In this document: piece by piece, positions 10,665 through 55,868 of the stretch
Position numbering within the stretch: position 1 is the stretch's first letter
Layout: each line of letters opens with the position of its first letter
Origin: Prevotella sp.
GTDB taxonomy: Bacteria; Bacteroidota; Bacteroidia; Bacteroidales; Bacteroidaceae
Assembly (NCBI GenBank): GCA_017483805.1
Contig: JAFUUL010000088.1
Span: 1 to 62,870 of the forward strand
Direction of reading: 5' to 3'
Length of the DNA stretch: 62,870 bases
Notes under the pieces: generated by a model
Told to the model about the DNA's origin: nothing
Databases searched by the model: none
The model's input: the letters and a program-made list of their open reading frames with translations, nothing else
Translations under genes and position numbers: made by a program

Positions 10665-10692
10665 TCTTAATTCTTAATTCTTAACTCTTAAT
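10665..10692. repeat. Four tandem 7-bp repeats between susC1 and susD1
   Basis: TCTTAAT, TCTTAAT, TCTTAAC, TCTTAAT (plus strand) fill the intercistronic gap and run into the susC1 stop codon. On the mRNA they give repeated AUUAAGA upstream of the susD1 start, so copy-number change would alter the leader length in steps of seven bases. Confidence 0.8.
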
Positions 10693-13600: not shown

Positions 13601-13799
13601 GAATGCTAAACTGACCATCGGCATTAGTGATCGTGCCCAGACTGGAGCCCAGCACTTTCACGGTAGCACCGATGACTGGCTCACCCTGTTCGTCGTTGAC
13701 CGTTCCTTTGACCAGGCTCTGAGCCCATGCGCCCAGCGGCAGCAAACAGAGCAGGAACAGCATCAAAAGTGGCTTTTGAAGATACTTAAAGTTTGACAT
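10692..13799 (-). CDS. SusC/RagA-family TonB-dependent transporter 1
   Basis: This 1035-residue outer-membrane transporter imports oligosaccharides released at the surface. Signal peptide residues 1-26 (LPLGAWAQ) are followed by a carboxypeptidase-regulatory-like domain (~28-110, VKGTVNDEQGEPVIGATVKV), then the TonB plug (~120-230, with VVVIGYGVQKKSDLTGAVAS and VLKDAASAAIYG). The 22-strand barrel ends in F (MVLGLSVTF). All hallmark SusC motifs are present. It is the first gene of the susC1-susD1-esterase operon, with promoter at 13832-13840 and a regulatory box upstream. Length is normal. The ligand is probably arabinoxylan oligosaccharides, inferred from the enzymes encoded next door. Confidence 0.95.
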   Translation of the reverse strand: MSNFKYLQKPLLMLFLLCLLPLGAWAQSLVKGTVNDEQGEPVIGATVKVLGSSLGTITNADGQFSIQAAQGATLNISYVGYVPQTVKVSGQNLAVVLQEDTNALNDVVVIGYGVQKKSDLTGAVASVKAADLENRSTTDAAAALQGKAAGVQILNSSGKPGMGANIRVRGYSSNSSNIGPLLIVDGLQVASIQYLDPSMIESMEVLKDAASAAIYGAEAGNGVILITTKQGAKGKGTINYTGKFTNQSLGHVGKLLNAAQFRDWMGMQLGEAQVTADMADAKNLYGWNPDTDTDWMDEYFENSWAQQHTLTFQGGNDRGSYFLSTSYVNQDGIVKGDKDKYERLTGQINADYRIKDWLQVGTNTSIEKWSTRSVSENGYGSSFEMLLLIDPLTPLYWTAPGQMLGDYRNYYDAIQARDSRYRLFGDENGYYATSYFNQRLAGANPFSQRDRAEGKSSGVNVNGTVFMNITPIKYVTFTSRLGYRLSFTNSSDWQYPYYLNTQTHGDNYSISGTSSNSTWYQWENFVNYNQDFGKHNVGAMVGMSFRQSDSNYVTGKADGPDILNAYEANYIYLSSINGNANTTKTIQGIPGTTRALSYFGRLLYNYDNRYSLQMNFRADAFDSSKLSKDNRWGHFFSASAGWTFSNEKFFKDAVDPSIMSFGKVRASWGTNGNVNVLNNYAYTAGISLNSQFYNYGPTNAVTYGSMPNGIANPDLTWEKSEQIDLGLDMRFLSDRLTVGIDWYKKTTKDLLVPAPVMPESGFSTMTINAGKIENSGLELELSWRDHIGDFKYGVSANMATLKNKATYLDPSIERIEGATVEGASPGAIRCYFEEGEPVWYMRGYKYAGRADDGTALYYTSDGGTTNDPQDGDMMNIGSGLPDVTYGITLNAEYKGIDLTIFGAGQAGNDVYYGLYRTGYNNIAKGVYDDFKSGKFPNAASVHGVAKFYQSSAMVYNGSFFKLKQVQLGYTLPKSITKKAYMENVRAYISLDDFFTFTSYPGLDPETCTQEYNCPGLDKGVYPNMKKMVLGLSVTF

Positions 13800-13831: not shown

Positions 13832-13879
13832 GCAAAGTTACGACGAAACCCGCCATCGTCTTTTTCTCGTTTGTTTCAT
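13832..13879 (-). promoter_or_regulatory. susC1 promoter with 12-bp regulatory box
   Basis: Minus-strand TAACTTTGC (13840-13832) is the minus-7 element. ATGAAACAAACG (13879-13868) lies 27 nt upstream, matching the box at three other promoters near the HTCS gene. No TTTG minus-33 element is present, suggesting dependence on an activator. Confidence 0.7.
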
Positions 13880-13954
13880 TTGATTACCTTTTCACTTTCG
13901 ATTCAAGCATGAGACAAATAGAAAAGGAAGACGAACAAAAGAGAAAAGTGAGGC

Positions 13955-25944: not shown

Positions 25945-28900
25945 TTACTTTTTGACGACCTTCTCAGTCTTCACAGTGCCGTCGCTCATGTATTTCTTCA
26001 CAATCACGATGCCCTGACGAGCCGAGTTGATGCGGCGGCCATCCAGGTTGTAGATCTCGATAGCGCGAACCTTGGCAGGCTGAGCCACGTTGAGATCAAT
26101 ACCATCGGCGATGTCCTGCTGAACCTGTGCATAGGCCGAAGCGTAGTCGAAGCCCGTTGCGGGAGCAGTCAGGTAGATAGCCTTGATCTGGTCGAACATC
26201 CACTGTGAGGTGGCAGGCGTATTCATACCAACTGTCATAACGCCATCGGTCACTACGATGTTCTCCATCACCTGATCGTGGTGTCCCTGATACTGACCAT
26301 AGTAGGTCACGTCTACCGTAGCGGCAAAGTTCACAGCGCGATCCTCCTCAGCACCGTCCTCAACGGCGGGCGTCTCAGAGGTCTTCACGAATACGAAGCC
26401 ATTGGTCACGTCATCGTCAGCCCAACTTGCAGCATCGAGAACGACGGTGTAGACACCGGCGGGCAGGTCGCTGACAGTCTGCTCGAAGCGTGCAGCCGAA
26501 TGATACTTGGTGAAGGCCACGTCCTCAGCGATGCCGGGGATGTTGCGCGGCGTACCGCCAACCCACATGGTAGTGATATCGCCAGTGCCGATACTCATGT
26601 TCCAACCAGGCACATTCTCGGCCGAAACGCCGTTCTTCACCTGCAGGGCATAGATATTCGGGTTCTTGAAGAACACGCTCATGTCATACTTCGGGGCAAT
26701 CTCGTTGAGGTCGGCATCTACAGTAGGCTTGAACAGTTCGTTGCCAGCCTCCTTCAGTTGACCATAGACATTCTCCTTGATGCGGAGTTTCACCTTCTCA
26801 GCCAGTTCGTCGTCGTCGGTCAGGGCATTGACAGCAGCCTGCACCAGTTCATCGTCTTCAGCGACGCCCAGCGACTTCAGAGCCTCTGCACCACGGCGCA
26901 GACGATCAACCAGAACCTTCACGCCGCTGTCGCCAGTAGCCGACACACCTGCAGTGAAGAGTGCGCTGGTGTTGGCCACGATGTCCTTCAGTTCAGCGAT
27001 GGCAGCCGTCAGATCGGCATCCACCTTCAGTGAATCATAGTTGTAGAACAACTTCCACTCCTCGGCGGTGGGGTCGGCGATGGTGTCGGCCACGTTGCGC
27101 CATGCAGAAGAGCCATGATACTTGGCAACCAGAGTCTCCAGTTGACCGAACAACTCGGTAGCCATGAACTTATGCTTCAGGTTGGGAGCACCGTTGTCAG
27201 TCTCGGCAGATACCTGACGAATCACGTCGATAGCCTGCTTGATCTGCTCATCATAACTGTCGCAGAGACCACCGTGGTTCTCCAGGGCGTTAGCCAGGGC
27301 TGTCAGGTCTTCGGCAGCGGTAGCGTAAGCAGAAGGATTGGTGTAGCCTTCCTTCTCCACCTCGTACTTGGCGATAGCGGCATCCAGAGCGGTGAAGTCA
27401 GCGCCTTCATAACGCTCACCGGCATACTTGTTGCGGGCAGCCTTGGCGCTCTCCAGTGTGGCATCCAGCAGACGGATCCACTCGGCACCCGGCTGATAAG
27501 GCAGATACTGAACCTTCACATTGCCAATAGCGCTGGCATCGTTGTAGCCGGCAGGCTCACCTGAACTGTCACCGGGAACAAGGCGGATGATGTAGTTACC
27601 CTCGACAGTGACGGGGATGATGATATCGAAATCGGTAGACTTAGTGGTAGTCTTGAAGTCGGGCTCAATGGCCTTGCGCTCTTCAACCAGAATCTGAGTC
27701 TCGTCAGTGATGCTTCCGTCAGCCACGTTGACAGCAGCCTCGGGCAGCACCTGAACCTTCAGCGTGCGGGCAGCACCGTCGCCGTCCCACTTGGCAGCCT
27801 TCAGCATCAGGTGATAGTTCTTGGCCTTCAGGGTCAGTTTGGCATCGTCCTTCGTGCCATAGAGGGCCACACCGCCACCTGCCGTGCCGCGCTGGCCGAG
27901 ATAGAGGATATCGGCAGCAAAGCCAGCCTGTCCGTGCATCAGACGGCAACCAGAGCCCGAGTTGGCATCCTGCATGCCGCCGGCATCAGAGTTGGTGATC
28001 CAACTATTGCCGCTGGCAGCGAAGTCGTCGGTCATCACGGTCTCTTCCACATCGTTGGGATCGAGTTCCACCTTGCCCACGCTGAACGTATAGGTAGTGT
28101 CGCCAAACACCTCGTCGCCCAGATGCATCTTAGGATAGATCTTGTTGACAGAGATGGTGTACTCGCCAGTAGTCAGATCGCCACCCTCACGAGTCAGCGT
28201 AATGTCTGTGGCAAAGCCAGTGTTAGGAGCAACAGCCAGAGCAGCACCATTGATGGTAGCCGTCAGGGCAGCGCAGTCAACATCCTTGTCGAAGGTCAGT
28301 TTGAACTCCTTGATGCTGTTGGGCAGGTTGAACGAACCGTCCTCGGGCTCAGCCTTCAGCACCACCGGAGTCAGATAATCATAAGGATAGCCTTCGTTCT
28401 CCTCAACCTCAGCGTTCAGGGTAGCCACCACGTCAGAGAAGTTCTTCACGTCCTGATCCTTCACAGCACCCGAGGTATAGACAATGTGGAATGCCTCGTC
28501 GGCAGGATTGTTGAAACTGACCGTCACCTCATCTTTCTCCTCAGCAGCAGCCTCCAGGAACACATAGAAGCGACCATCAGCAAAGCCTTCAATAGAATAG
28601 AGGTCCACAGCCTTACCGTTCACCTTCACCGTTGCACAGTCATTGGGGAACAGCAGACGGGGCTTACCACCCTTCTTCACCAGGTCAGCCACATTGGTGT
28701 CGAAACCGAAGTCAACCAGCACCACGTCGTTGCTGAACTCAGCAGTCGTACCATACTTATAGATTTCGAACTTGATGTTGTCGAAGTAGTAGGTATTGGC
28801 AGCAGTATGGTTGTCGGGGTTCAGGTTGAAGGCAGCAGACTGGAACTGCTTATCAGCCTTCGACTGATCTGCCGACACCTCATCTTCAAGTTCAAAGGTC

Positions 28901-29808
28901 TGCCAGTCGGTAGTGAAATCCAAATTGCCGAACAACTTCCAGTGGATATAGTCGGAAGGCTCTGCGTGAGCCTGAGTGCCAACAGATGCAGCCTCGTCGG
29001 CACGATAGTCGAACGACACCTTATACTTAGTGCCGGCAGGAACAGCCTCATTGAAGCGGAACCAGAACTGGTTGTCATAGTCGTTGGCCGTCTTGTCGCC
29101 GGTCTTCACCACGACGCCGCGGCTGCCATCCTTACCCTGGCCGTCCACGATCTCCGAATTCACCACGCTACCAGCGTTGTCGCCAATGTTCACCTTCGTG
29201 AAGAACGAACTTGCGTCGTCGCCCTCCATGTTGCTGTTGTTGATCAGGTTGGTCCAGCCCACCTGCTGCACCTTTGCGTCCTTCACCACGACCATGCTGG
29301 TGACGGTGGTATTCTGCCAGTTGGCACCCTTAATGGCATGCAGATAAGCAAAGCCCTTGTCCTTCACCATCTGCTTCAGGTCAACGGTATAGACAGTCTC
29401 GCCCTCGTTCTCACCTGCAGTCTTCGTGAAGTATTTCTCAGCCCATGTGCCCTCGCACTTAGGATACTCAATCAAGTGCGAATTAGCCTCAGTGGCATCA
29501 AACAGGCCCTCGTCCACGTCACGGTTCATCATGATGCGCGGGGTTCCCTCGGTGGCCACCACAATCAGTTTGCTGTACGTTGACAGGTCAGCAAAGTTCT
29601 TCACGCCACCGTCACCGTAGGGCTGGCCTGTAGAAACGCCCACATTCCAGTCAGGCGTTGCGGCTGTTGCCTTAGCCTCGTCAAGGCCCCACTTGTCACT
29701 GTGGGTCCAGAACGGAACCTCCTGCAGCGAAATCTCCTCTGCGCTGACATTCGTCACACCGAGCATCATCAATGCCAGTGTGAGATACATGCGGAAAAAT
29801 TTTCTCAT
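25945..29808 (-). CDS. Very large secreted protein of unknown function, PUL-associated
   Basis: This ~1287-residue protein begins with a signal peptide (MRKFFRMYLTLALMMLGV...VSAEE). Residues ~60-185 contain a beta-rich module (PYGDGGVKNFADLSTYSKLI, TPRIMMNRDVDEG, FAYLHAIKG). The same module recurs in the 1500-residue neighbour. A CBM4/9-like region follows (~190-350, NLINNSNMEGDD, KVSFDYRADE), then an Ig-like domain (~490-600, PEDGSFNLPNSIKEFKLTFD) and a helical, FIVAR-like region (~800-1050). The last ~60 residues (IEIYNLDGRRINSARQGIVI...VVKK) resemble a type IX secretion tail. No catalytic motif is recognised. The promoter shares the regulatory box, so it is probably induced with the PUL. 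A surface glycan-binding or matrix role is inferred. Confidence 0.72.
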   Translation of the reverse strand: MRKFFRMYLTLALMMLGVTNVSAEEISLQEVPFWTHSDKWGLDEAKATAATPDWNVGVSTGQPYGDGGVKNFADLSTYSKLIVVATEGTPRIMMNRDVDEGLFDATEANSHLIEYPKCEGTWAEKYFTKTAGENEGETVYTVDLKQMVKDKGFAYLHAIKGANWQNTTVTSMVVVKDAKVQQVGWTNLINNSNMEGDDASSFFTKVNIGDNAGSVVNSEIVDGQGKDGSRGVVVKTGDKTANDYDNQFWFRFNEAVPAGTKYKVSFDYRADEAASVGTQAHAEPSDYIHWKLFGNLDFTTDWQTFELEDEVSADQSKADKQFQSAAFNLNPDNHTAANTYYFDNIKFEIYKYGTTAEFSNDVVLVDFGFDTNVADLVKKGGKPRLLFPNDCATVKVNGKAVDLYSIEGFADGRFYVFLEAAAEEKDEVTVSFNNPADEAFHIVYTSGAVKDQDVKNFSDVVATLNAEVEENEGYPYDYLTPVVLKAEPEDGSFNLPNSIKEFKLTFDKDVDCAALTATINGAALAVAPNTGFATDITLTREGGDLTTGEYTISVNKIYPKMHLGDEVFGDTTYTFSVGKVELDPNDVEETVMTDDFAASGNSWITNSDAGGMQDANSGSGCRLMHGQAGFAADILYLGQRGTAGGGVALYGTKDDAKLTLKAKNYHLMLKAAKWDGDGAARTLKVQVLPEAAVNVADGSITDETQILVEERKAIEPDFKTTTKSTDFDIIIPVTVEGNYIIRLVPGDSSGEPAGYNDASAIGNVKVQYLPYQPGAEWIRLLDATLESAKAARNKYAGERYEGADFTALDAAIAKYEVEKEGYTNPSAYATAAEDLTALANALENHGGLCDSYDEQIKQAIDVIRQVSAETDNGAPNLKHKFMATELFGQLETLVAKYHGSSAWRNVADTIADPTAEEWKLFYNYDSLKVDADLTAAIAELKDIVANTSALFTAGVSATGDSGVKVLVDRLRRGAEALKSLGVAEDDELVQAAVNALTDDDELAEKVKLRIKENVYGQLKEAGNELFKPTVDADLNEIAPKYDMSVFFKNPNIYALQVKNGVSAENVPGWNMSIGTGDITTMWVGGTPRNIPGIAEDVAFTKYHSAARFEQTVSDLPAGVYTVVLDAASWADDDVTNGFVFVKTSETPAVEDGAEEDRAVNFAATVDVTYYGQYQGHHDQVMENIVVTDGVMTVGMNTPATSQWMFDQIKAIYLTAPATGFDYASAYAQVQQDIADGIDLNVAQPAKVRAIEIYNLDGRRINSARQGIVIVKKYMSDGTVKTEKVVKK

Positions 29809-29871
29809 GTGCATAATTGTTTTTAGTTAATAATATTGGTTTAATAAATCTTGATTTCTCGGAATCACGCT

Positions 29872-29918
29872 GCAAAGGTAAAGCCCTTTGCGCAAACGGG
29901 CTTTATCGTTTGTTTCAT
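29872..29918 (-). promoter_or_regulatory. Promoter with 12-bp box and hairpin spacer
   Basis: Minus-strand TACCTTTGC (29880-29872) is preceded by a spacer containing AAAGCCC...GGGCTTT. ATGAAACAAACG (29918-29907) lies exactly 26 nt upstream of the element. The block is about 85 percent identical by eye to the promoter at 34868-34914. No TTTG minus-33 element is found at the canonical spacing. Confidence 0.75.
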
Positions 29919-29954
29919 AAGATTTCGTTTTCGTATTACTTACAAAAAACAAGG

Positions 29955-30194
29955 TGCACTTTCTGCACTTACTACACCTAAAGCCTGTCAAACCACCCAT
30001 GCTATTCAACACGACAACAGCCATCTTGGCTTGCTTCGGATAACAGTTCCCAGTTGTTCCTCCCGTGGGAACTGACTGTTTCTCCCAAGGAAACAAAGTG
30101 TTTCTCCTGGAGAAACAAACTGTTTCCATAGGAGAAACAAATCGGAAACACTTTTCCTTGGGGACGACCAAGTGCAGTAAGTGCAGAAAGTGCA
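29955..30194. mobile_element. MITE-like element with 22-bp inverted repeats
   Basis: Arms at 29955-29976 and 30173-30194 are inverted repeats of 22 bp with one mismatch; each is built of tandem nonamers TGCACTTWC. The 196-bp interior contains at least four hairpins of GTTTCTCC...GGAGAAAC type at ~22-bp spacing. No transposase is encoded. The 144-codon open frame across it on the minus strand looks like a by-product of the repeats. The left end abuts the conserved promoter block of the gene at 25945-29808. Confidence 0.7.
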
Positions 30195-30241
30195 GCATCT
30201 TTTCGGTAACTATATATGTGCGCTGACTGTTAATGAACCTG

Positions 30242-30274
30242 AAAAAGCCCCCGCCGCACATAGCGACAGGGGCT
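30242..30274 (-). terminator. Terminator of the 1500-residue protein gene
   Basis: AGCCCCCGCCGC (30246-30257) pairs with GCGACAGGGGCT (30263-30274) with two wobbles, followed by TTTTTC on the minus strand. It lies about 40 bp beyond the stop at 30314. Confidence 0.8.
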
Positions 30275-30287
30275 CTCTTAGGATTTT

Positions 30288-30305
30288 CCTCCCCGAGGGG
30301 AGGGG
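30288..30305. repeat. CCTCCCC palindrome, REP-like
   Basis: CCTCCCC-GA-GGGGAGG with an extra GG is the same family as the inserts in the VirE-like gene. Here it lies in the 3-prime untranslated region between the stop and the terminator. Confidence 0.6.
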
Positions 30306-30313
30306 TTAGTTGT

Positions 30314-33300
30314 TTACTTAATCACGACCTTGCGGCCACCAATGATGTAGAGACCCTTCTGAGCCTTCTGCACCTTCTGACCATTCAGGTTGTAGATAGC
30401 ACCGTTCTCAGTGCCAGCCTTCACAGCGTTGATGCCGGTGAGGACTTCCTGATCCTGCTCAGCGTCGATGAAGTAGATGTGGCAGCCGTTGGTGTTCTTC
30501 ACGAGAACATTCACAGTACCCGTCTCGCCAGGCACCTTCCACTCCTGCTCCACATAGGTCTTAGGAGCAGCAACAGCGTTACCCTCGGCATCCTTCAGTT
30601 CTACGTCGCCGACAAACAGTTGCACGCCACGAGCATCAGTTGACTTGTGCGACTCAACACCCATCTTGATGGTGGTGCCGGCCTTCACAGCCTTGATGGT
30701 CAGAATCTCCTGGCCCTTGCCACCGAACCAGAGGTATGCAGGACCATGATACTCACCAAGACTTGTCTTAGGATAGTTCACGGCGATGGCCAATGCACGG
30801 CTCTTAGCATAAGTAGCATTGAACTCAAGACCCTTAAACTCACCAATAGCCACGCCGTTAGCGGTCAGTTCGCTGGCCTCCTCAATAGCCCAGAAGCAGT
30901 TGTCCTTAGAGGCTGCATAGGTGTCGCATTCCTTGCTGGGATCTTTCTCGTGGTCAGTCCACAAGGCATCGTTGTCAACGCACTTAGTTATGCCTTCTTT
31001 GCCTTCAACAGCAGTTATGGTCACCTTGGCGGCCTCAGCCTTCAGGTTGGCAACGGTCTCGCTGCTCCACTTGGTGAAGTCCCAAGTATGGGTCACCTCA
31101 ACGGCCTTCTTCTCGAACTGCACGTTCTTGAACGACAGCCAAGAGATGTTGTTGTCGGCAGCGACGATGAACTTGATTGTCAGCACGCCATCAGCAGCAA
31201 CAGTACCCTTAGCGGCAACCTCCTTCAGATAGAACTGAGAGTCACCAATCTGAGTGCCATCGGCCACATTGACAGCCTCGCCCTCGTTAGCCTGCAGGGT
31301 GATGCCAGCAGCAGGAGCCTCGGCACCATTCTTTATACGTACGCGTACCCAAGCGGTCACGTCGTAGTCGCCAGCCTCCAGATTGTTCATGGTGGCGGTC
31401 AGGGTCTTCTCACCGAGAGAATCGCCATCGCCGATCCAGTACTCAATGAAGGGAACAATGAAGTTAGAACCGTCGTTTCCACCTTCTGTCGACCACGTGT
31501 TCACATGATATGTAGTCCAGTCCATCGGCTCTGCATCCCATACGCTCATCAGCAGGTCGTCAACGGTGTTGGCAGCATGCCAGCCAGTGATGGCGTTAGG
31601 ATCCTGCAGGGCACTGGCCTCAGCCTTGGTCAGCGTACCGGCCTCATACTTGGCAGCCCACTGTCCGTAGTAGGTTTCGAGAGCCTCTGCTGTGTAGAGG
31701 TTGGTGCTCTCGGTGAATGCCTTCATCTTGGGCAGCACCTCCTTGGCAGCAATCGAACCCTCTGCCTTGTCGATAGCAGCAGTCAGAGTAGCGATGGCAG
31801 CATTGATAGCCTCAGTGCCGCTCACGTTCTCCGTCTCAGTCAGAGCAGCATTCAGGGCTGCGTCGATAGCAGCAATCTCTGCTTTACCCACCAGGTCTTG
31901 GGCCTTCTCACGAAGTTCGGCCAACTGTGCCAGAATAGCACCGTTCTTCACCTGATCGATGGTTGCATCAGCACCATAGTAAGTCAGGACGAAGTTGTCC
32001 CAAATGCACCACAGAGCAGTGTTGCCTTCCAGTTTAGCGCCAATGGTCAGCGTACCGCCTTCTGCCACCTCTACAAAGATAGGATCAATCGTATAGAGGC
32101 CGTTCTTGAACGATGTGCCAGCATCACCCATGCTATTCTCAGTACCAGTCTTCACAGGGAAGGTCTGCTTTTCATCGTTGGCATAGAAGTAAGGCAGATG
32201 TTCGTTATCCGTGCCATCCTGACGATAGAAGCCCTGAGCAGTCAGAGCGTAGATACCCTTGGGAGCATCGGCCAACACCTGAATCAGCGTGAACTCCGAA
32301 TGGTAAGACTCTGCGCAGTTATTGCCGATAGAACCATTGTTTGCTTCGCCGCCTGAGAGGTTCTTGTTGGAAGCCTCGATAGTCCACTTGCTTACGTAGC
32401 GGTTGTTGCGGCCAAAGTCGTGGTCCTCGATCAGCAGAGTGGCATCCATCGGGTCGTCCATCGTAGCATCCCTCAGGGCAGCCTTGGCCTCGTCGAGAGA
32501 GACAATAAGCCACAGAGCATTCTCGCTGTCAGCAGGCAGATTCTTGCCCAGCACCGTCGATGTACCATCCCATCCAAAGTAGTTGTCGCCATTGGCAATC
32601 GTGTAGGCGTAGACGGGCTGTGTCTCTTCTTCATCAGAATAGCCGTAGATACCTGCACGCTTGATAGTCAGGGCCAAGGGAGAGCCGTTGTCCATATAGT
32701 CGCCATTGAAGTAGTAACTGGTACCACCGTTGTTCACCTGCGACTCCATCTTGTAGGTGCCATCCTCATTCGGGTCGAGTTTCACGTATTCGGGATGAGC
32801 CACCAGCGAGGCCTGCGTGCCCCAACTATTACCGACGCCCCAGTACTTCTCACTTGCAATATTGGCAATGATATACTTCTGATATGTAAACTCAGCAGGC
32901 TCCTTGGGTGCCTCATAGGTCACCAGTTTGTTGCCGGCGTTAAACTCGTAGACAGGATCACCCTCCTTGGGCTGATACTTCGTCATTGTACCAGTGACAA
33001 CAACCGTTGCGCCAACCTTCACGTCATCAATAGAGGCGAAGTCAGCACCATCGATACCCTTGCCCTGATAGCACTCGAATTGCTTGGTTGTACCGTCATC
33101 AGAAATCCAATAGGTGATGTACTTCTTGGTATCATCGAACTTGTCAACCTGCGATACAATACCCTTCACGAATACCACATCGCTCAGAGCCTTGCCTGCC
33201 TCGATCAACTCGATAGCCTTGGCAACGGTGTATGCGGTCTCGGCGGTGTTGGCAATCGTAGCGGGAGCCACAGTCTCCTCGTTGGCTGCAGCAATCGTAA

Positions 33301-34816
33301 CCACGATTTTTGTGAGTTGGTTGGTCTTGGTAGGAATAAACTTGATACTTGAAGCATTGCCTTCCCAAACCTTTTCTGTCAATCCCTCAGGATTTGCAGT
33401 CAGGCCGAAGTTGGAGCCATTGGCTGTGAACTCAACCTTTGTGATGGCCTTACCCTCGGGGGCAGCCAGAGCAATCACGCTGTTCGAATAAGCACGAACC
33501 TGCGGACCAGTCCAGAAACGAGCAGGTGTAGTTGCACCAGCCTGATCAAAACTCAGGGTCACACCCTCTTCTACGATAGGCTCAGTAATATTGCCCTGCT
33601 CGGCTGTCTCACCAGAACCACTGCCAAGTGCATGTTCCCACTTGTTTGCAGCAAAGTCGAAGGTCACCTCCGTAGCAGCGGGAGCAGCCTCCTTGTAGAG
33701 CAGCATATCGGTGACGATGACACTAGTACCATATCCCTGCGCCTTGATGCAGTGCAGACGAGCAAAATTATAGTCATCAACAATCTTCTTCAGGTCAATG
33801 GTAAAAGTCTTACCATCAATGGTCTCATAGGCTTCCGTGGACCATGTGTATTCATTGTTGGGATTGATGTCGAGCATCTTCGAGTCAGCCTTGGTCTCTG
33901 CCTGCTGGCCGTTAGCCTCCAAACGATTCATGCAGAAGCGAGGCTTCACTTCGCCTGCCACAACAACGATAAGTTTGTCATAGCCAGCCAGGTCGGCCCA
34001 TTTCAGTTCGCTCACGTTGCCGTCGCCATAAGGCAGGCCACTAGCAGTAAACAGCACGCAGGGAGCACCTGCTACGGCTGTACCCTCACCAGGTTCTGCC
34101 AGCGAGGCATACTGCTTGAACATATCGGCCGACAGGTTGGTGTAGCCATCGGCCAGTGCCAAAGCATCTACGGCATTGTTCAGTGTTTTCATAGCAGAAG
34201 TAAGGCTTTCCTCCGTAGCGTCAGTAGCGTCATAGGCTGCCTGAGCAGTGGTAATGGCCGTCTGCAAGGCAGCAAAACTTTCCGCGGTTTTTCCAATACT
34301 AGTGCACAGTTTTGCTTTGGCAATAGCCTTCGAAAGATTCTCCTTTGGCAGAGCCAGAGGGTCAGAACTCTTCACCAGATAGACTTCATTTACTTTCACC
34401 TTTCCACTGCCATTATAGCCTGAAAGGCATATCTCCTGACAGTCGGTCAGATAAGCCGCATCCATACTAAAATCTGAAAGATTGTACTCTTTCTTTCCAG
34501 ACTCAGTAACAATAGTCACCCCACCGGCAGTAGTTCCTTTGCTATTAGCATAGAACATAAAGCGGTAGCCATCTCCTTCCAAAATCTCGCAATCAATCAC
34601 CAGTTTTTCATAACTGGTCAGATTCCCGTTTGGAAGTCCAATGTTGTGCAACTGATTTCCATACGGCGAAGACCAAGAAAAGGTCTTAGCCTCTGAGTCC
34701 CATGTAATGCCAGTGGGGCTTTCAAAGGTAGCATAGACCTTGTCTTGCGCATCTACAGTCATCACGCCTAGTACACACAATACAAGCGTGAAGAATAGTT
34801 TAGTAAATACTTTCAT
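30314..34816 (-). CDS. Giant secreted protein of unknown function, PUL-associated
   Basis: This 1500-residue protein has a signal peptide ending near VDAQD. Residues ~25-150 form a beta-sandwich-like module (NLTSYEKLVID, EICLSGYNGSGKVKVNEVYL). A helical FIVAR-like segment follows (~155-225), then a second copy of the module (~255-385: LPYGDGNVSELKWADLAGYD, KPRFCMNRLEANG). An OB-fold-like region with YITYWISDDGTTKQFECYQG is at ~560-630. Several CBM-like beta domains and more helical spacers lead to the tail NGAIYNLNGQKVQKAQKGLY...KVVIK, a type IX-like C-terminus. No catalytic site is recognised. It is encoded directly after the HTCS gene from its own boxed promoter. The shared module with the 1287-residue protein suggests a pair of cooperating surface glycan-binding proteins. 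Confidence 0.72.
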   Translation of the reverse strand: MKVFTKLFFTLVLCVLGVMTVDAQDKVYATFESPTGITWDSEAKTFSWSSPYGNQLHNIGLPNGNLTSYEKLVIDCEILEGDGYRFMFYANSKGTTAGGVTIVTESGKKEYNLSDFSMDAAYLTDCQEICLSGYNGSGKVKVNEVYLVKSSDPLALPKENLSKAIAKAKLCTSIGKTAESFAALQTAITTAQAAYDATDATEESLTSAMKTLNNAVDALALADGYTNLSADMFKQYASLAEPGEGTAVAGAPCVLFTASGLPYGDGNVSELKWADLAGYDKLIVVVAGEVKPRFCMNRLEANGQQAETKADSKMLDINPNNEYTWSTEAYETIDGKTFTIDLKKIVDDYNFARLHCIKAQGYGTSVIVTDMLLYKEAAPAATEVTFDFAANKWEHALGSGSGETAEQGNITEPIVEEGVTLSFDQAGATTPARFWTGPQVRAYSNSVIALAAPEGKAITKVEFTANGSNFGLTANPEGLTEKVWEGNASSIKFIPTKTNQLTKIVVTIAAANEETVAPATIANTAETAYTVAKAIELIEAGKALSDVVFVKGIVSQVDKFDDTKKYITYWISDDGTTKQFECYQGKGIDGADFASIDDVKVGATVVVTGTMTKYQPKEGDPVYEFNAGNKLVTYEAPKEPAEFTYQKYIIANIASEKYWGVGNSWGTQASLVAHPEYVKLDPNEDGTYKMESQVNNGGTSYYFNGDYMDNGSPLALTIKRAGIYGYSDEEETQPVYAYTIANGDNYFGWDGTSTVLGKNLPADSENALWLIVSLDEAKAALRDATMDDPMDATLLIEDHDFGRNNRYVSKWTIEASNKNLSGGEANNGSIGNNCAESYHSEFTLIQVLADAPKGIYALTAQGFYRQDGTDNEHLPYFYANDEKQTFPVKTGTENSMGDAGTSFKNGLYTIDPIFVEVAEGGTLTIGAKLEGNTALWCIWDNFVLTYYGADATIDQVKNGAILAQLAELREKAQDLVGKAEIAAIDAALNAALTETENVSGTEAINAAIATLTAAIDKAEGSIAAKEVLPKMKAFTESTNLYTAEALETYYGQWAAKYEAGTLTKAEASALQDPNAITGWHAANTVDDLLMSVWDAEPMDWTTYHVNTWSTEGGNDGSNFIVPFIEYWIGDGDSLGEKTLTATMNNLEAGDYDVTAWVRVRIKNGAEAPAAGITLQANEGEAVNVADGTQIGDSQFYLKEVAAKGTVAADGVLTIKFIVAADNNISWLSFKNVQFEKKAVEVTHTWDFTKWSSETVANLKAEAAKVTITAVEGKEGITKCVDNDALWTDHEKDPSKECDTYAASKDNCFWAIEEASELTANGVAIGEFKGLEFNATYAKSRALAIAVNYPKTSLGEYHGPAYLWFGGKGQEILTIKAVKAGTTIKMGVESHKSTDARGVQLFVGDVELKDAEGNAVAAPKTYVEQEWKVPGETGTVNVLVKNTNGCHIYFIDAEQDQEVLTGINAVKAGTENGAIYNLNGQKVQKAQKGLYIIGGRKVVIK

Positions 34817-34867
34817 GTTACTTTGTTTTTTGGTTAATAATAGAAATAGGTGTTTTTATAATGCGAT

Positions 34868-34914
34868 GCAAAGGTAAAGCCCTTTGCGCGAAAGGGCTTT
34901 TCCATTTGTATCAT
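34868..34914 (-). promoter_or_regulatory. Promoter with 12-bp box and perfect hairpin spacer
   Basis: Minus-strand TACCTTTGC (34876-34868) follows AAAGCCCTTT...AAAGGGCTTT, a perfect 10-bp stem. ATGATACAAATG (34914-34903) is exactly 26 nt upstream of the minus-7 element. It is nearly a duplicate of the promoter at 29872. Confidence 0.75.
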
Positions 34915-34976
34915 AAGGTTTCGTTTTTGTATTACCTACCAAAAACAAAGTACGCTTTTCCGAATAAAGGCTAAAA

Positions 34977-37900
34977 TCACTTGCCGCTCTCGGCGTATTC
35001 GGAGGGTGAGACGCCGAAGTGCTTGCGGAAGATGGTGGAGAAGTGGGCCAAGTTGGAGAAGCCCACGGTGTAGGCCACCTGCGTGATGTTGATCTTCTGC
35101 TCCTTCAGCAGGCGGGCGGCCTGCTCGAGGCGGATGTTGCGGATGAACTCACTGGTGGAAATGCCCGTCATCTCCTTCATCTTGCGATGCAGTTGAGCAC
35201 GGCTGATGCCTACCTCCTGAGTGAGCATATCCACATTGAAGTCGCTGTTCGACAGGTTCTTGTTCACCGCCTTCATGATGCGCTCCATCAGCAGTTCGTC
35301 GTTGCCCTTCACCTCGGGTGCCTCCACGCGGTCGGCCTGCTGCTGGGCTCCGGTGAACTTGCCCTTCAGCCGCAGGCGCGACTGAATGAGGTTGTCGATG
35401 GTCATGTGGAGTTCCTCCATGTCGAAGGGCTTGGCCAGGAAGGCATCGGCACCGCGCTCCAGTCCCTGCAGGCGGTTGCCCACGTCGGCCTTCGAGGTGA
35501 GCATGATGACGGGGATGTGGGCTATGTTCATGTTGGTCTTGACCATGCGCAGCATCGTGAAGCCGTCCATCTCGGGCATCATCACGTCGGAGACCACCAG
35601 GTCGTAGTCGCTGGTGAGCAGTTCCTTCAGGCCGTCCTTGCCGTTGGCCGCCTTGCCGAACTTATAGTAGTGACCCAGTTCACTGGCAATATAGTTGGCA
35701 ATCTCCTCGTCGTCGTCGACCACGAGGACGCGCCGCCGGGAGCCGCCGCCGGCAGACCCGCCGCCACCCCCATTCCCGAGCGGCGCTCGCCTACCCGTTG
35801 CCTTTCCCTGTGAGGGCGGGGCGTATGTAGTGCTATCGGCAGTGGACTGGGGCTGACCACTCCCCTCCGCTCGGGAATGGGGTTGGGGGAGAGTCTCCAT
35901 CTCTTCCTCCTTCAGGTGGGCATTGCCCAGCGGCAGTGCGACGGTGAACTGGGCGCCCTGCTGACCGTCGGAACGGTGGGCGGCCTCAATCTGGCCATGA
36001 TGCATGTCGACAATCATCTTGCAGAGGTTCAGGCCGATGCCCGTGCCCTTGATGCCCAGTTTGCGGGCATTGGCACCCTGATAGAAGCGGTCGAAGATGT
36101 GCTTCAGGTTGTCGGCATCGAGACCGGCACCGTTGTCGGTCACCTGCAGGCGAACGGCCCGCTCGTCGCGGGTGAGGGCGATCTTCACGGCACCCTGCTC
36201 GCCGCAGTATTTGAAGGCATTGGAGAGCAGGTTGCTGACCACCTTGTCGAACTGGCCGCGGTCCACCCAGGCCTCCACCTCGTCGGCATCGGTCTCAAAC
36301 TGGAAGTCGATGTCGCGCTCTTTGGCGTTATACTCATACATCTTGCAGATGCTGCGCACAAAGGCTACCATCTCCGTGGGCTGGCAGTGCAGGTGCATCT
36401 GCTGCTTGTCTATCTTGCGCACGTCGAGAATCTGGTTCACCAGGTTGAGTATGCGCTTGGCATTGTGCTCGATGGTCACGACCGAGGGCTGGAAGGTCGA
36501 CGTGTTGAACGACTGCAGTTGGTCGGCCGTGGTCAGGCTGTCCAGGCGGGCATTCTTCAGTTTCTCCAGCGGCGCAAGGATGAGCGTCAGCGGCGAGCGG
36601 ATGTCGTGGGTGGCGTTGATGAGGAACTTCATCTTCTCCTCGTTCAACTGCTCGTTGGCGCGGCGGCGGTAGGTGTATAGCACATAGGCCAGCAGCGACA
36701 GGGCGACGAGGGCATAGATGAAATAGGCCCAGAGCGAGCGGTACCACGGCTGGCGAATGGTGACGAGCACCACCTTCTCGGGCGTATAGTCGTTGCCCTG
36801 CTGGGCCCTCACGGCTATGCGGTAGGTGCCAGGCTGCAGATGGCCCAGCGTAAAGTCGTTCTGTCCGGCGGCATTGCGGATCCACTCGCCATTGTTGACG
36901 CTGTACTCGAGAATGATGTTAGAGGGATCGTCGAAGTTGAACTGCGAGAAGGCCAGCGTGACGGTGTGGTCGAGATAACTGAGCGTGAAATAGTTGCTCT
37001 CGCGAATGGCACGGTCGGTCACCTCTACGCCGTTGATGACGGTGCCCCGCTGCACATACTGGTCGCCCACGCGGAATGCCGTGAGTTTCAGGGGGTCGAG
37101 GGCACTCACCTTCTCCTTCACGTCGGCAGGACGGAAGACGGTGAGGCCGTCGTTGTGGGCAAAGTAGACGATGTCGCCATCGGTGTGCATGCCCACGCCA
37201 TAGAGATACTCCTTCTGCACGAGGCCGTTGCCGGAGATATGACCCACAAACGACTGGCTGCTCAGCCTGTACTGCCAGATGCCCATCGACGAGGAGCACC
37301 ACAGGTCGCCGTTGTTGGCCTGAACGATGTAACTCACCACCTTGTTCTGGAGGGTCTCGCTGCCAGGGAAGCGCTCCACCTGGCGCGTCTGCGGGTCGTA
37401 GAGATAGAGGCCCTGCTCGGTGCCTATGGCGATGCAGCCCTTCAGTGAACGTCCGTCGGGCAACTGACCGGCATGCAGTTCGCACACGTCGAAGCACACC
37501 ACGCCATTGAGCAACTGACCCCAGCCCTGCGAGCGGAAACTGTCATGATCAGGATCGTAGCACGACACGCCCGAGGCGGTGGCCAGCCAGATGAGTCCCT
37601 GCTCATCGGCCGAAAGGCCCATCACCCAGTTGTTGCAGAGGCGACCCTTCACGGAGTCGTCCTCCTCAAACACGTTGTGGTTGAGCAGCGAGCCCGTCTG
37701 CGGATTGTAGACGCAGAAGCCGCGGGAGAAGGTGGAGATGTAGAGCCGGCCGCGGTCGTCACTGGTCACATCGTTGAACTTGTCGCAGTCGAAGGTGACC
37801 TTCAGTTGGGAGCGCCCCGTCTGGGGGTCGTAGGCAAAGAGGCCGTCGTCGGTACCTATCCAGTAGCGCTGCTGGCGGTCGCGGAAGATGAACTCTGTGG

Positions 37901-39023
37901 CATCGGGGGCCTGCGGATGAGACACCACGCGGCCCTGGGCATTGAAGCCATAGACGCCCACGCCCTGCACCGTGGTCCACACCATGCCGCCATCGCCCTC
38001 GCACACCGAACTGATGGTGCTGCCCAGGCTGACGCCCTGGTCGGCAAAACTCCAGTTGGCAAACTGCATGGGGTGCTGGGGCAGCATGAGCAGGCCCTTG
38101 CGGTGGCAGCCCAGCCACAGGTTGCCACGATTGTCGAACACCAAGGCACTGATCTTGGCTGTGGCCTGGTCGATGCCCTGGGCACTGGCCTCAACACGCT
38201 CCAAGCGGCGGCCCACCAGCCGGTAGAGGCCGTTGCCTCGCGTACCTATATATATTACGCCATCCTTGTTGATTGCCACACGGGTGAAGATGATATCCTT
38301 GCCGGCCACTGCACTCATGTCGAAGCCAGCATCGACAAAACGCCCGTCGCGATAGGCCAGCAGACCATGCATGCACAGCACCAACACCTCGCCATTCAGT
38401 TCGAAGAACATCGAGGGAGCACCCAGGATGGACTGGAATTTCTGCACCTGGCTGCCCTCAATCAGGTAGATGGTGTCATCGAAGCCGCTCTTCCACAGGC
38501 GCCGGCGACCATCCTCATACAGCCGACTGAAATAGCCATCGGTGCCCTCGATGGCCACAGGCTGCAACTGGGCATCGGCCGAAGCCAGGCTGTAGAGCCC
38601 ATAGCCGGCAGTGCCCACCAGCAGGGTGCCGTCGGCACTCTGGCAGATGCTGGTCACACGAGGCGTGATGCGGTCGGGGAAAGCATAGTGGCAGAACTGA
38701 CCGCGCTCGTAGTCGTAGCGGTCGAGGCCCCTGTTGGTGCCCACCCACAAACGGCCCTCGCGGTCGCAGAGCAGCGTGACCATCACGTTGGCCTGCACCG
38801 AGGTGGTATCGGCATCGTCGTGCAGAAAGGTCTGGAAGTGGTAGCCGTCGAACCGGTTCAGCCCGTAGTCGGTGGCAATCCACATGGAGCCTTCGCGGTC
38901 TTGGCACAGGCTGCAGATGAGGCTGCTGGAGAACTGGTCGGAGGGGAAGAAGTGTCCACGCTGCGCTACGGCACACACGGCAAATAGCAGCAGAGAGGTT
39001 ATCGTCAGCAATAGTCGTTTCAT
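34977..39023 (-). CDS. Hybrid two-component system sensor-regulator (HTCS)
   Basis: This 1348-residue protein senses oligosaccharides in the periplasm and activates PUL genes. In order: signal peptide; two-component regulator propeller repeats (~25-680, e.g. SMWIATDYGLNRFDG, LWVGTNRGLDRYDY); Y_Y_Y domain (~690-755); membrane helix (LWAYFIYALVALSLLAYVL, ~765-785). The histidine kinase has its H-box in NATHDIRSPLTL (His ~807) and an ATPase domain (GTGIGLNLCKMIV). The receiver domain has its phospho-acceptor Asp in LVVSDVMMPEMDG (~1144), and an AraC-type DNA-binding domain (~1245-1345, VAYTVGFSNLAHFSTIFRKH) ends the protein. All parts look intact. The kinase-receiver linker (about residues 1047-1085) is expanded by a palindrome-bounded insertion. 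Its position between the xylan PUL and the fasciclin operon, and the shared promoter box, make it the probable regulator of both. Confidence 0.95.
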   Translation of the reverse strand: MKRLLLTITSLLLFAVCAVAQRGHFFPSDQFSSSLICSLCQDREGSMWIATDYGLNRFDGYHFQTFLHDDADTTSVQANVMVTLLCDREGRLWVGTNRGLDRYDYERGQFCHYAFPDRITPRVTSICQSADGTLLVGTAGYGLYSLASADAQLQPVAIEGTDGYFSRLYEDGRRRLWKSGFDDTIYLIEGSQVQKFQSILGAPSMFFELNGEVLVLCMHGLLAYRDGRFVDAGFDMSAVAGKDIIFTRVAINKDGVIYIGTRGNGLYRLVGRRLERVEASAQGIDQATAKISALVFDNRGNLWLGCHRKGLLMLPQHPMQFANWSFADQGVSLGSTISSVCEGDGGMVWTTVQGVGVYGFNAQGRVVSHPQAPDATEFIFRDRQQRYWIGTDDGLFAYDPQTGRSQLKVTFDCDKFNDVTSDDRGRLYISTFSRGFCVYNPQTGSLLNHNVFEEDDSVKGRLCNNWVMGLSADEQGLIWLATASGVSCYDPDHDSFRSQGWGQLLNGVVCFDVCELHAGQLPDGRSLKGCIAIGTEQGLYLYDPQTRQVERFPGSETLQNKVVSYIVQANNGDLWCSSSMGIWQYRLSSQSFVGHISGNGLVQKEYLYGVGMHTDGDIVYFAHNDGLTVFRPADVKEKVSALDPLKLTAFRVGDQYVQRGTVINGVEVTDRAIRESNYFTLSYLDHTVTLAFSQFNFDDPSNIILEYSVNNGEWIRNAAGQNDFTLGHLQPGTYRIAVRAQQGNDYTPEKVVLVTIRQPWYRSLWAYFIYALVALSLLAYVLYTYRRRANEQLNEEKMKFLINATHDIRSPLTLILAPLEKLKNARLDSLTTADQLQSFNTSTFQPSVVTIEHNAKRILNLVNQILDVRKIDKQQMHLHCQPTEMVAFVRSICKMYEYNAKERDIDFQFETDADEVEAWVDRGQFDKVVSNLLSNAFKYCGEQGAVKIALTRDERAVRLQVTDNGAGLDADNLKHIFDRFYQGANARKLGIKGTGIGLNLCKMIVDMHHGQIEAAHRSDGQQGAQFTVALPLGNAHLKEEEMETLPQPHSRAEGSGQPQSTADSTTYAPPSQGKATGRRAPLGNGGGGGSAGGGSRRRVLVVDDDEEIANYIASELGHYYKFGKAANGKDGLKELLTSDYDLVVSDVMMPEMDGFTMLRMVKTNMNIAHIPVIMLTSKADVGNRLQGLERGADAFLAKPFDMEELHMTIDNLIQSRLRLKGKFTGAQQQADRVEAPEVKGNDELLMERIMKAVNKNLSNSDFNVDMLTQEVGISRAQLHRKMKEMTGISTSEFIRNIRLEQAARLLKEQKINITQVAYTVGFSNLAHFSTIFRKHFGVSPSEYAESGK
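35768..35882. mobile_element. 115-bp inverted-repeat element inside the HTCS gene
   Basis: CCCCATTCCCGAGCGG (35768-35783) and CCGCTCGGGAATGGGG (35867-35882) are perfect 16-bp inverted repeats. The segment is translated as the Pro/Gly/Ser-rich linker between kinase and receiver domains. It resembles the paired palindromes at 4948-5058 in size and plan. Confidence 0.7.
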
Positions 39024-39059
39024 CGTTGTAGTAAGAGTCTTTATAGTACCATTTCGACT

Positions 39060-39091
39060 GCAAAGATACTAAATAAAAACAAAACGGCAAA
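39060..39091 (-). promoter_or_regulatory. HTCS gene promoter, canonical type
   Basis: Minus-strand TATCTTTGC (39068-39060) with TTTG (39091-39088) 19 nt upstream is a canonical constitutive Bacteroidales promoter. It lacks the 12-bp box, as expected if the regulator itself is not autoregulated through it. Confidence 0.75.
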
Positions 39092-39103
39092 TTTTTGGAC
39101 AAG

Positions 39104-39149
39104 AAAAAGAAAGCGACCACCGATATTTCACATACAGGCGGTCACTTTC
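39104..39149 (-). terminator. Terminator of the candidate sRNA
   Basis: GAAAGCGACCACC (39109-39121) pairs with GGCGGTCACTTTC (39137-39149) with two wobbles, and TTTTTCTTG follows on the minus strand. There is no comparable U-run on the plus strand. Confidence 0.85.
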
Positions 39150-39283
39150 AGAGTTTTGTACCATAACTAACTCTACTACAAAAAATAAAATCAACTACTA
39201 ACTATTTACTATTCCTTACGAAGAAAAATTACTACAAACAACTTTTACTATTTCAAACTACTAACAATCTTGTCTCGGATTCA
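39104..39283 (-). ncRNA. Candidate small RNA between the HTCS gene and the fasciclin operon
   Basis: A boxed promoter (39288-39334) and a strong terminator (39104-39149) enclose about 180 nt without a convincing reading frame. The body is AU-rich, full of UAG triplets, and carries repeated octamer-like words (ATAGTAAA twice, TTAGTAGTT twice, TTGTAGTA twice). The first transcribed bases CGTGAATCCGAGA nearly match the leader of the gene at 25945-29808. It could be a regulatory RNA of the PUL. Alternatives are an HTCS leader with attenuation or a decayed gene. Confidence 0.5.
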
Positions 39284-39287
39284 CGAT

Positions 39288-39334
39288 GCAAAATTACTGC
39301 ATTTCATCGAAATAGGCTTTCTCATTTGTTTCGC
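39288..39334 (-). promoter_or_regulatory. Boxed promoter with no gene directly below it
   Basis: Minus-strand TAATTTTGC (39296-39288) has GCGAAACAAATG (39334-39323) exactly 26 nt upstream, then AGAAAGCC as at the promoters at 29872 and 34868. GTAATTTTGCATCGT is shared with the fasciclin operon promoter. It lies just beyond the SusD2 stop. Confidence 0.65.
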
Positions 39335-39358
39335 TTTTCTTCTTTTTTGTATATTTTG

Positions 39359-45959: not shown

Positions 45960-47957
45960 TTAATGCTGGTCTTCACCCTCGGGACTACCGTAGACACTCT
46001 TAGGACAGAGTTCCAGATAGTCGAAACTCCAGTAGCAACTGGGATCCTTCAGCACCTGACGGGCACGCAGGTAGTAGTCCTGCCCTTCCTCCAGTTGAGT
46101 CGTGGTCATGATGTAGCGCAGGTTGTGAATGTGAGAACGGAGCACGTTGGTCTTGTCGCCTCCCTGCCAGTAGCAGTCCATGCCCTTCATATAACCGTGA
46201 TTGCGCATGGCCTTGTCGATAGCCTTGTTGGCATTGATGGCCTCGGTGGTCTCTCCGCTCACGTCAGCCACCCAACCGATGGTGGGGTCGCTGCCGTAGA
46301 TACGCAGGTCGGCAGGAATACCGCAAGGCACGCCGTCGAGATAGAACTGCACCACGCCACGCTCCACGCCGACCGTATAGCCGACACGAATCTCATAGGT
46401 GCCAGACTTGGGCACGGGCGGCAACTTGAACGTAGCATCGAAGATACCGCTGACAGTGACACCATTGCTCTTATAGTGCGACCACCAGATATCATCACCA
46501 TGCATGCCGACAACAGCCTGCTCGCCCATCACCTTCCAGTTCTTGATGTATCCAAGGCGGAAGGCAATGACCTGCTCCTTACCGAAACGGCCACGGGCAC
46601 CGCTGTTCTGGAAGTCGGGACTCAGCACGCTGGAGTCGAAGCGCAGGCGACAGTTGAGCACCTCGTCGCGCACCGTCTCATTGAACTCCAGGATATCATC
46701 CAGATAGTGGTACATACCATTGGGGGCCTGCTTGAGAGTGCTGACCAACTCTTTGCCTTGCAGGACTCTCACGCCCTTGACCTGATAGCGATTGCCCAGG
46801 CCCTTGCGGTTGATGTAGAGTTGCTCGTTAGGATAGCAGAAGCGCATGATGGTGCCGGGGCACATGGTCTCGTAGAACTCCTCGGGGTCGGCCTTGCTCG
46901 TATCCCAACATCTCAGAGTCTCCGAACTGCCGATAATCTCGTCATAAGGCAGAATGCGGTCCAGCAGGTGATAACTGACGAAGCGGTTCAGGGGGTTCTT
47001 GCGGCTCTTGAAGTCGTTGTCATACTTGCCTGCATCCTGTGGATAGACGGCATCGTAGACCTTCTTGGCATAGGCAATCAGATCGTTCAGATCATAAATG
47101 TCGTGCTCGTTGTAGACTGCATCGGGCTCGATGAAAGCCGTAAACTTGAAGTAGCGCTTCTCCGGCCACTGGGCGGGCACAGCCACGCCACCATCGGAAC
47201 CCGACTTACAGACGATGCGGTTGTTCCAGGAATAGACAGAGTCCTGCGACACCTTGTCGGCCCCCCATTCGGGATAGGTCTCATCCTCAAAAGCCATCAG
47301 AGAGTCGGCCATACCAGTCAGGAACAGAGCCTGAGAGAAGATGCTGATGAGCGAATCGGCAGCAATGACATCGGGCAACTTGTCGCTGGTACGCGGAATA
47401 ATTCTGTTCACGATATGCACCACGCCATTGGTCACCGAGTCGTCGAACTCTACCATACGAGCCACTGTATTGGCATAGTGGACAATGGCATTGTTGTTGC
47501 TGGCGTCATTGGAAACGGACACCTCAATATAGGTCTCTGCCATGTTTTGGCCGAGCGAGCCCTCTGACTTGTCGGTGGTGAAAAAGGCGTTGTCCTTGAT
47601 GATGTGGGTACGAACCAGTGTGTCTATGACTGCCGAGGGGATATCCTCGATGGTAGCGTAACTGTTTTCGGACAGATAAATGGCTATGGCCTCATTGTTA
47701 GGTGCAAAGACCGTATAGTCGCCATAGGTGGAGAGCAGGGCGAAATAGGGCGTCTTCTTCATGATGTCGACAAACGACCCTACCTTCTCAGGATTATCTT
47801 CAAGGAACGCAGCAGCCGTCATCTTCTCAGACGTGTATCTGGTCATGGGCACATCGTCGTCGTTGTCGACACACGAAGTCAGCGCTACGCTAAATGACAT
47901 ATGACACATGATAAGCGATAAACCTATCAGAAGTCTCTTTGTTATCTTGGTAATCAT
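45960..47957 (-). CDS. Fasciclin-domain surface lipoprotein 2
   Basis: This 665-residue lipoprotein (lipobox VALTSC, C29, then VDNDDD) has a first fasciclin domain at ~50-200, showing YFALLSTYGDYTVFAPNNEA and TNGVVHIVNRIIPRTSDKLP, close to the family consensus. A second, diverged unit spans ~205-420 (VISAADSLISIFSQ-like opening, RYFKFTAFIEPDAVYNEHDI). The C-terminal ~200 residues look like a lectin-type beta-sandwich (PVPKSGTYEIRVGYTVGVER, VVQFYLDGVPCGIPADLRI). A possible carbohydrate or glycoprotein ligand is inferred from that fold only. It is encoded 24 bp after susD3 and 17 bp before the next fasciclin gene, in the middle of the operon. Confidence 0.83.
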   Translation of the reverse strand: MITKITKRLLIGLSLIMCHMSFSVALTSCVDNDDDVPMTRYTSEKMTAAAFLEDNPEKVGSFVDIMKKTPYFALLSTYGDYTVFAPNNEAIAIYLSENSYATIEDIPSAVIDTLVRTHIIKDNAFFTTDKSEGSLGQNMAETYIEVSVSNDASNNNAIVHYANTVARMVEFDDSVTNGVVHIVNRIIPRTSDKLPDVIAADSLISIFSQALFLTGMADSLMAFEDETYPEWGADKVSQDSVYSWNNRIVCKSGSDGGVAVPAQWPEKRYFKFTAFIEPDAVYNEHDIYDLNDLIAYAKKVYDAVYPQDAGKYDNDFKSRKNPLNRFVSYHLLDRILPYDEIIGSSETLRCWDTSKADPEEFYETMCPGTIMRFCYPNEQLYINRKGLGNRYQVKGVRVLQGKELVSTLKQAPNGMYHYLDDILEFNETVRDEVLNCRLRFDSSVLSPDFQNSGARGRFGKEQVIAFRLGYIKNWKVMGEQAVVGMHGDDIWWSHYKSNGVTVSGIFDATFKLPPVPKSGTYEIRVGYTVGVERGVVQFYLDGVPCGIPADLRIYGSDPTIGWVADVSGETTEAINANKAIDKAMRNHGYMKGMDCYWQGGDKTNVLRSHIHNLRYIMTTTQLEEGQDYYLRARQVLKDPSCYWSFDYLELCPKSVYGSPEGEDQH

Positions 47958-55704: not shown

Positions 55705-55751
55705 GCAAAATTACACATTATTTATGGGAGCGGCATTTTTATTTGTCAGCA
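55705..55751 (-). promoter_or_regulatory. Promoter of the fasciclin-SusCD operon
   Basis: Minus-strand TAATTTTGC (55713-55705). In the same register as the PUL boxes lies TGCTGACAAATA (55751-55740), keeping the ACAAAT core, followed by AAAATGCC (compare AGAAAGCC at the sRNA promoter). GTAATTTTGCATCGT is identical to the sRNA promoter. Confidence 0.6.
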
Positions 55752-55868
55752 TGGTTTTTCTGTTCGTCAACACTTTTTTACGTTCGTTTCATCTTCTTTT
55801 CTTTTCGTCTCAGGCATCATCTGGCACCCTCGTCCCACATCTTTATTTGGTAAAAAAGGCTCAAAACA

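Follow-up and report, generated by a model that had tools for sequence, protein, structure and literature searches.

In this study, we have examined a 62,870-nt stretch of DNA from Prevotella sp. (the window), which carries a hybrid two-component system (HTCS) gene at 34977-39023 and, before this gene and several of its neighbors, a 12-bp box at a nearly constant distance above the TAnnTTTG promoter element. The box forms the 5' portion of a promoter-proximal half-site of 15 bp that is directly repeated 21 bp upstream, and the comparative evidence makes it very probable that the box and its partner form a tandem operator of this HTCS, positioned as a class II activator site. The HTCS is favored as the regulator because the element is found again near other HTCS genes whose output domains are similar and precedes the HTCS gene itself, and because it stands at the place of the -33 promoter element and shows the direct repetition at 21 bp that has been predicted for HTCSs of Bacteroides.

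RESULTS

The box and its promoter register

The original prediction placed the box at four promoters, 27, 26, 26 and 26 nt above TAnnTTTG, and direct reading verified the positions, the minus strand and all four distances (Table 1). The pattern GAWACAAAYG has four matches in the window, which are exactly these boxes, where 0.32 are expected, and 0 of 100 shuffles reached four. The exact 12-mer with at most two mismatches was not above chance in the window (4 matches versus 3.48 expected), and the degenerate 12-mer was weak when used alone across the genome (3,626,307 bases in 199 contigs), with nine matches, four of them in the window, versus four for the reversed pattern; the box was therefore rejected as a stand-alone 12-mer. 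The genome-wide scan for the box core with its register, which had been proposed as a check, favors the prediction: ACAAAYG-N25-28-TAnnTTTG has five matches, four being these boxes, and the reversed control has one. The fifth match, on contig C125, was rejected as a regulon member, since its strand is opposite to that of the promoter seen by eye and it looks like chance.

Half-sites repeated at 21 bp

The 12-mer is a real element but forms part of a larger, putative operator. A distal copy of the form ACRAA...GAA lies 21 bp above the box at three of the four promoters and is weak at susC1. Both copies and the register together have four matches in the genome, all in the window, and none for the reversed control; these are the same three promoters and one at 55706-55713, which brings the four promoters originally listed to five. 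Proximal and distal copies are identical at 8, 9, 9 and 10 of 15 positions in four window promoters.

A lag of 21 is not compelling in single promoters but is compelling across species. The related set consisted of stretches, mostly HTCS centered, around HTCSs whose output domains are 78 to 90% identical to that of the window (32 stretches from 27 other species; 571 kb). Forty-eight nonredundant promoters outside the window were picked by the proximal word alone, which leaves the distal half unselected, and their self-identity peaked at lag 21 (7.58 of 15), with no other lag from 12 to 45 exceeding 5.92. In the distal half, A (44 of 48) and C (46 of 48) are followed by A-rich positions and by AAA (42, 45 and 45 of 48); the matching stretch of the proximal half has A in 35, A or T in 45, A in 42 and G in 34 of 48, which is the AAAGCC word. 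This word had been described as lying at a constant offset, and it does start two bases past the box at three of the four promoters, with AAAAAG at susC1; however, its AAA aligns with that of the distal half-site, and since its AAA(G) overlaps the same half-site, it was rejected as a separate element. The G is weaker than the AAA (20 of 48 in the distal half). The CC is seen mainly in the proximal half, and some letters of the word may therefore come from an inverted repeat instead. Within one half-site, ACRAA and AAA(G) lie about ten bases apart, a spacing that, by analogy with the AraC family, is consistent with the two helix-turn-helix contacts made by a single domain of the AraC type.

Table 1. 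Operator, promoter and gene features of the window
Feature	Position	Strand	Sequence	Remark
Box, susC1 (10692-13799)	13868-13879	-	ATGAAACAAACG	27 nt above -7 element
-7 element, susC1	13833-13840	-	TAACTTTG	
Proximal half-site, susC1	13860-13874	-	ACAAACGAGAAAAAG	
Weak distal half-site, susC1	13881-13895	-	GTGAAAAGGTAATCA	5/15 identical to proximal
Box, 25945-29814 gene	29907-29918	-	ATGAAACAAACG	26 nt above -7 element
-7 element, 25945-29814 gene	29873-29880	-	TACCTTTG	
Proximal half-site, 25945-29814 gene	29899-29913	-	ACAAACGATAAAGCC	Overlaps box, contains AAAGCC
Distal half-site, 25945-29814 gene	29920-29934	-	ACGAAAACGAAATCT	21 bp upstream
Box, 30314-34816 gene	34903-34914	-	ATGATACAAATG	26 nt above -7 element
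-7 element, 30314-34816 gene	34869-34876	-	TACCTTTG	
Proximal half-site, 30314-34816 gene	34895-34909	-	ACAAATGGAAAAGCC	
Distal half-site, 30314-34816 gene	34916-34930	-	ACAAAAACGAAACCT	
Box, upstream of HTCS gene	39323-39334	-	GCGAAACAAATG	26 nt above -7 element
-7 element, distal, operator-bearing HTCS promoter	39289-39296	-	TAATTTTG	ATG 265 nt further on
Proximal half-site, HTCS gene	39315-39329	-	ACAAATGAGAAAGCC	
Distal half-site, HTCS gene	39336-39350	-	ACAAAAAAGAAGAAA	
Second HTCS promoter candidate, box free	39061-39091	-	TTTG-N19-TATCTTTG	
HTCS gene	34977-39023	-		1348 aa; Reg_prop propeller, HisKA, HATPase_c, response-regulator receiver, AraC-type HTH_18
-7 element, 53032-55644 gene	55706-55713	-	TAATTTTG	Gap 26
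Four half-sites	55732-55808	-		Steps 21, 20, 21 bp; upstream of fasciclin/SusC operon

Recurrence around related HTCS genes

A matrix built on the five window promoters with the -7 element excluded (threshold, at least 15 bits) gave 53 matches in the related set, whereas its reversed form gave 11. Below the 53 matches, TAnnTTTG first occurs at a gap of 26 in 38 cases, 47 in four, 68 in five and 7 in one, and five matches have none within 120 nt; gaps of 47 and 68 equal 26 with one or two repeat lengths added. When words were counted above 310 TAnnTTTG sites, 28 cases fell at 26, two at 27, five at 47, three at 48 and one each at 13 other gaps, and the reversed word had none. When every gap from 8 to 59 was scanned with a relaxed two-part rule, 38 sites fell at 26, four at 27, four at 47 and at most two at any other gap, and 23 of the 27 species had a site at 26 or 27.

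Forty-four operator promoters were collected outside the window, 42 from the 27 species and two from genome G078. They precede HTCS genes (17, each in a different related genome), homologues of the two large window genes (19), GH43 genes (3), a fasciclin gene and an esterase gene; the remaining three precede none of the window proteins. The large-gene homologues are thus the commonest operator targets outside the window; in the window itself, the proteins of 25945-29814 (1289 aa) and 30314-34816 (1500 aa) have no Pfam or NCBIfam match above the curated cutoff.

In a survey of 200 genomes of the genus, our own included, in which a match anywhere in the genome was counted and nearness to an HTCS was not required, the pattern was found in 102 and the reversed control in 12. 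Among the other genomes, 29 encode an output domain that is at least 78% identical, and 26 of these have the pattern, as do 75 of the remaining 170 (P = 3.7e-6, a value that ignores kinship among genomes); the pattern is enriched with a close output domain but not exclusive to it.

The same layout occurs with other letters. Contig C197 of the window's genome has two promoters with ACGAAATGATAAC repeats in the same register, at lag-21 identities of 13 and 11 of 15, and a gene nearby encodes a related output domain (37% identical); because its open frame is 624 aa, this gene is perhaps not a full HTCS. Among named relatives, for which 25 of 80 loci were scanned, locus L179 has a ACAWTWATTAACGGC repeat (13 of 15) at gap 26 and Hallella seregens ATCC 51272 a repeat at gap 27. 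When weak candidates are counted as well, 15 of the 25 loci have at least one and the other 10 have none, among them Xylanibacter ruminicola Ga6B6; judged by length, several of these contigs are identical to contigs of the genus set, and the loci are not all independent. These few loci suggest that the geometry is general and that the half-site letters are regulator specific.

Promoter class and the -33 element

The promoters carry TAnnTTTG at -7, in agreement with the Bacteroidetes primary-sigma consensus of TAnnTTTG at -7 and TTTG at about -33, as given in the parts of PMC7366714 consulted; positions such as -33 are read off this consensus. TTTG 17 to 23 nt above the -7 element was found at none of the 53 operator promoters, versus 35 of 141 other TAnnTTTGC sites, coding stretches included (Fisher P = 4.6e-6, again ignoring kinship). 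The missing TTTG fits activator dependence, and by its position the proximal half-site appears to occupy the -33 place, as for a class II activator.

A four-site array before the fasciclin/SusC operon

Four consecutive half-sites lie above the fifth promoter (Table 1), and a near match to the box at 55781-55792 overlaps the third of them, counted from the promoter. Above 195 TAnnTTTGC sites in the window and the related loci, consecutive half-sites numbered two in 52 cases, three in one and four in five, whereas shuffled upstream stretches had two in 0.7 cases on average and never more; the half-site consensus for this count was derived from the same loci, and the count is not a held-out test. 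The five four-site arrays, that of the window and four others, all precede a fasciclin-gene homologue; those of L050, L101 and L103 have nearly the same sequence, which leaves fewer independent cases than five. In the window, fasciclin-domain proteins are encoded at 45960-47957 and 53032-55644, among two SusC/SusD pairs beside the HTCS gene.

The HTCS gene and other features of the window

The HTCS has its domain set complete in one protein, from propeller sensor through HisKA, HATPase and receiver to the AraC-type helix-turn-helix (HTH) domain, and the motif of its receiver reads AHIP. Besides the operator-bearing promoter, the gene has a box-free candidate closer to the start codon, and a second consensus promoter was likewise flagged for 7 of 17 HTCS genes of related genomes. 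The domains found at the locus are GH43, GH31, CBM6, CotH, esterase and SusC/SusD; xylan, the substrate originally suggested, is not established by them.

An inverted repeat, AAAGCCC-N11-GGGCTTTA, lies at 29879-29904 and 34875-34900 on the minus strand, where it runs into the -7 element, and was found at only these two places in the genome. Of the large-gene promoters outside the window, 7 of 19 were flagged for such a repeat, and of the HTCS-gene promoters, none of 18; one more large-gene promoter (L111) has a similar repeat by eye that the rule missed. It is not needed as part of the operator. Every flagged repeat has a codirectional gene upstream, so that it may with equal likelihood be the terminator of this gene or an additional operator.

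An intergenic repeat at 29937-30213, which at one end borders on the 29873 operator, directly at its distal half-site, has inverted ends of about 41 bp (83% identical when reversed) and a nearly full copy (87%) on contig C126; 41 genome matches were listed, including itself and its own ends. At 2358, 25874 and 62825, the -7 element by eye directly follows a terminator-like hairpin and T-run, as if terminator and promoter were fused.

DISCUSSION

The prediction of a DNA-bound activator in fixed register, with the HTCS as its natural candidate, is favored by the comparative evidence, and the following sequence of events can be envisioned. Once a glycan is sensed, the receiver would become phosphorylated, and a pair of output domains would bind the two half-sites, whose 21-bp spacing places them on the same DNA face. 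The proximal half-site, at the -33 place, would put its occupant in contact with the polymerase above TAnnTTTG, as in class II activation, and the outcome would be activation rather than repression. Candidate targets are the susC1 operon, the two large genes, the fasciclin/SusC operon through its four half-sites, and the HTCS gene, whose autoregulation is likely on the basis of its operator: the box-free promoter could provide basal expression and the operator promoter positive feedback, as the presence of such operators upstream of the HTCS gene in 17 related genomes would also imply.

Several observations weigh against this interpretation. At susC1, the distal half-site is weak and the best lag is 27, and at 29873 and 39289, lag 21 ties with or falls one below the best lag. 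Four of the 27 species have no site by the relaxed rule, although three of these stretches are contigs of 6 to 14 kb or contig ends. The signal fades as output-domain similarity drops: domains 68 to 78% identical give eight matrix matches versus four reversed, six of the eight at gap 26; those of 51 to 67% give five versus one, none followed by TAnnTTTG; and those of about 50% give four versus three, two of the four at gap 26. Two other loci of the same genome with related output domains (C187 and C104) have no clear repeat. Finally, 106 of the 141 other TAnnTTTGC sites likewise lack the -33 TTTG, and its absence alone proves little.

A different DNA-binding regulator might use the tandem site, the HTCS gene being merely one of its targets. 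Of the genomes that lack a close output domain, 75 of 170 have matches, counted anywhere in the genome, and these would accord with such a regulator and also count against the HTCS; nevertheless, in this genome the two-half-site pattern with its register occurs only around this HTCS, the sites in related species lie at the HTCS gene and its neighbors (in stretches that were mostly HTCS centered), another related output domain, at C197, goes with a different half-site in the same layout, and direct repeats at 21 bp are the form predicted for HTCSs. We consider another regulator improbable.

Two further explanations are more improbable still. The half-sites are A rich and their A-runs return about every ten bases, so phased A-tracts, roughly one per helical turn, might bend the DNA or serve the polymerase as an UP-like element; however, the distal C is among the best-conserved letters, lag 21 beats all other lags from 12 to 45, including 31 and 32, a reversed word of the same letters is absent above the 310 sites, and the half-site letters differ at two other loci with the same layout, all of which makes this a very remote prospect. 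Least probable, if only slightly so, is that the register reflects common descent, the promoters being copies of one another without functional constraint. The 29873 and 34869 promoters are indeed alike by eye over some 70 to 80 bp, but the susC1, HTCS and fasciclin promoters share, also by eye, little beyond the operator and the -7 element, and across species the spacer positions carry little information, yet the gap of 26 holds.

A wider rule may apply to HTCS promoters: a 21-bp direct repeat of any letters would end at a fixed gap of 26 to 27, in the register of the box, above TAnnTTTG and in place of the -33 element. Held jointly with this rule is the proposal that the four half-sites of the fasciclin/SusC operon give room for two HTCS dimers, versus two sites at the other targets, and build an order or strength into the response; the two together seem to us to stand at about an even chance. 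A repeat of 21 bp with a fixed distance to the -7 element would be a simple means of assigning operators to many HTCSs, the operators and regulons of unstudied HTCSs would become readable from sequence, and the rule states in definite terms how activator and polymerase would come together.

Tandem half-sites are also used by AraC of Escherichia coli, whose araI1-I2 sites lie about 21 bp apart with the proximal one at the -35 region, a layout similar to that described here. AraC differs in being a cytoplasmic sugar sensor without two-component domains that acts at a sigma-70 promoter.

Closer parallels come from Bacteroides thetaiotaomicron, for which our sources were available in part. In the work of Ravcheev et al. 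(2013; PMC3878776), 16 of 36 HTCSs were assigned a predicted motif, in each case a direct repeat, with a mean spacing of 21 bp (examples being 12+9, 16+5 and 14+6 bp), upstream of operons beside the HTCS gene, and HTCS dimers were proposed to bind one face of the DNA; 20 of the 36 had no motif, and experimental tests were called for. The parts of that paper covered here give no distance to a -7 element, and in the literature searched, likewise in part, we recognized no statement of a fixed distance between an HTCS operator and the -7 element or of a four-site operator, although we do not claim that none is in print. In PMC11253607, the HTCS response regulators BT4124 and BT4663 were studied by electrophoretic mobility shift assay on promoters with predicted sites. 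Like these, the HTCS of the window combines a receiver with an AraC-type HTH domain; unlike them, it has another operator and other targets, and its receiver has AHIP in place of the S/C-HIP that the same source, as far as covered, reports for most HTCSs (S or C first in 84%).

The element described here resembles the predicted B. thetaiotaomicron operators of PMC3878776 in being a two-site direct repeat of about 21 bp upstream of polysaccharide utilization locus operons beside the HTCS gene, and differs from them, as far as that source was covered, in its Prevotella genome, its distance to the -7 element, which is explicit and fixed, its likely targets, which include the HTCS gene, and one promoter with four sites. 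Judged by its sequence, it belongs to an already known kind, the HTCS direct-repeat operators, to which it adds a fixed register, likely autoregulation through an operator before the HTCS gene, and a four-site array.

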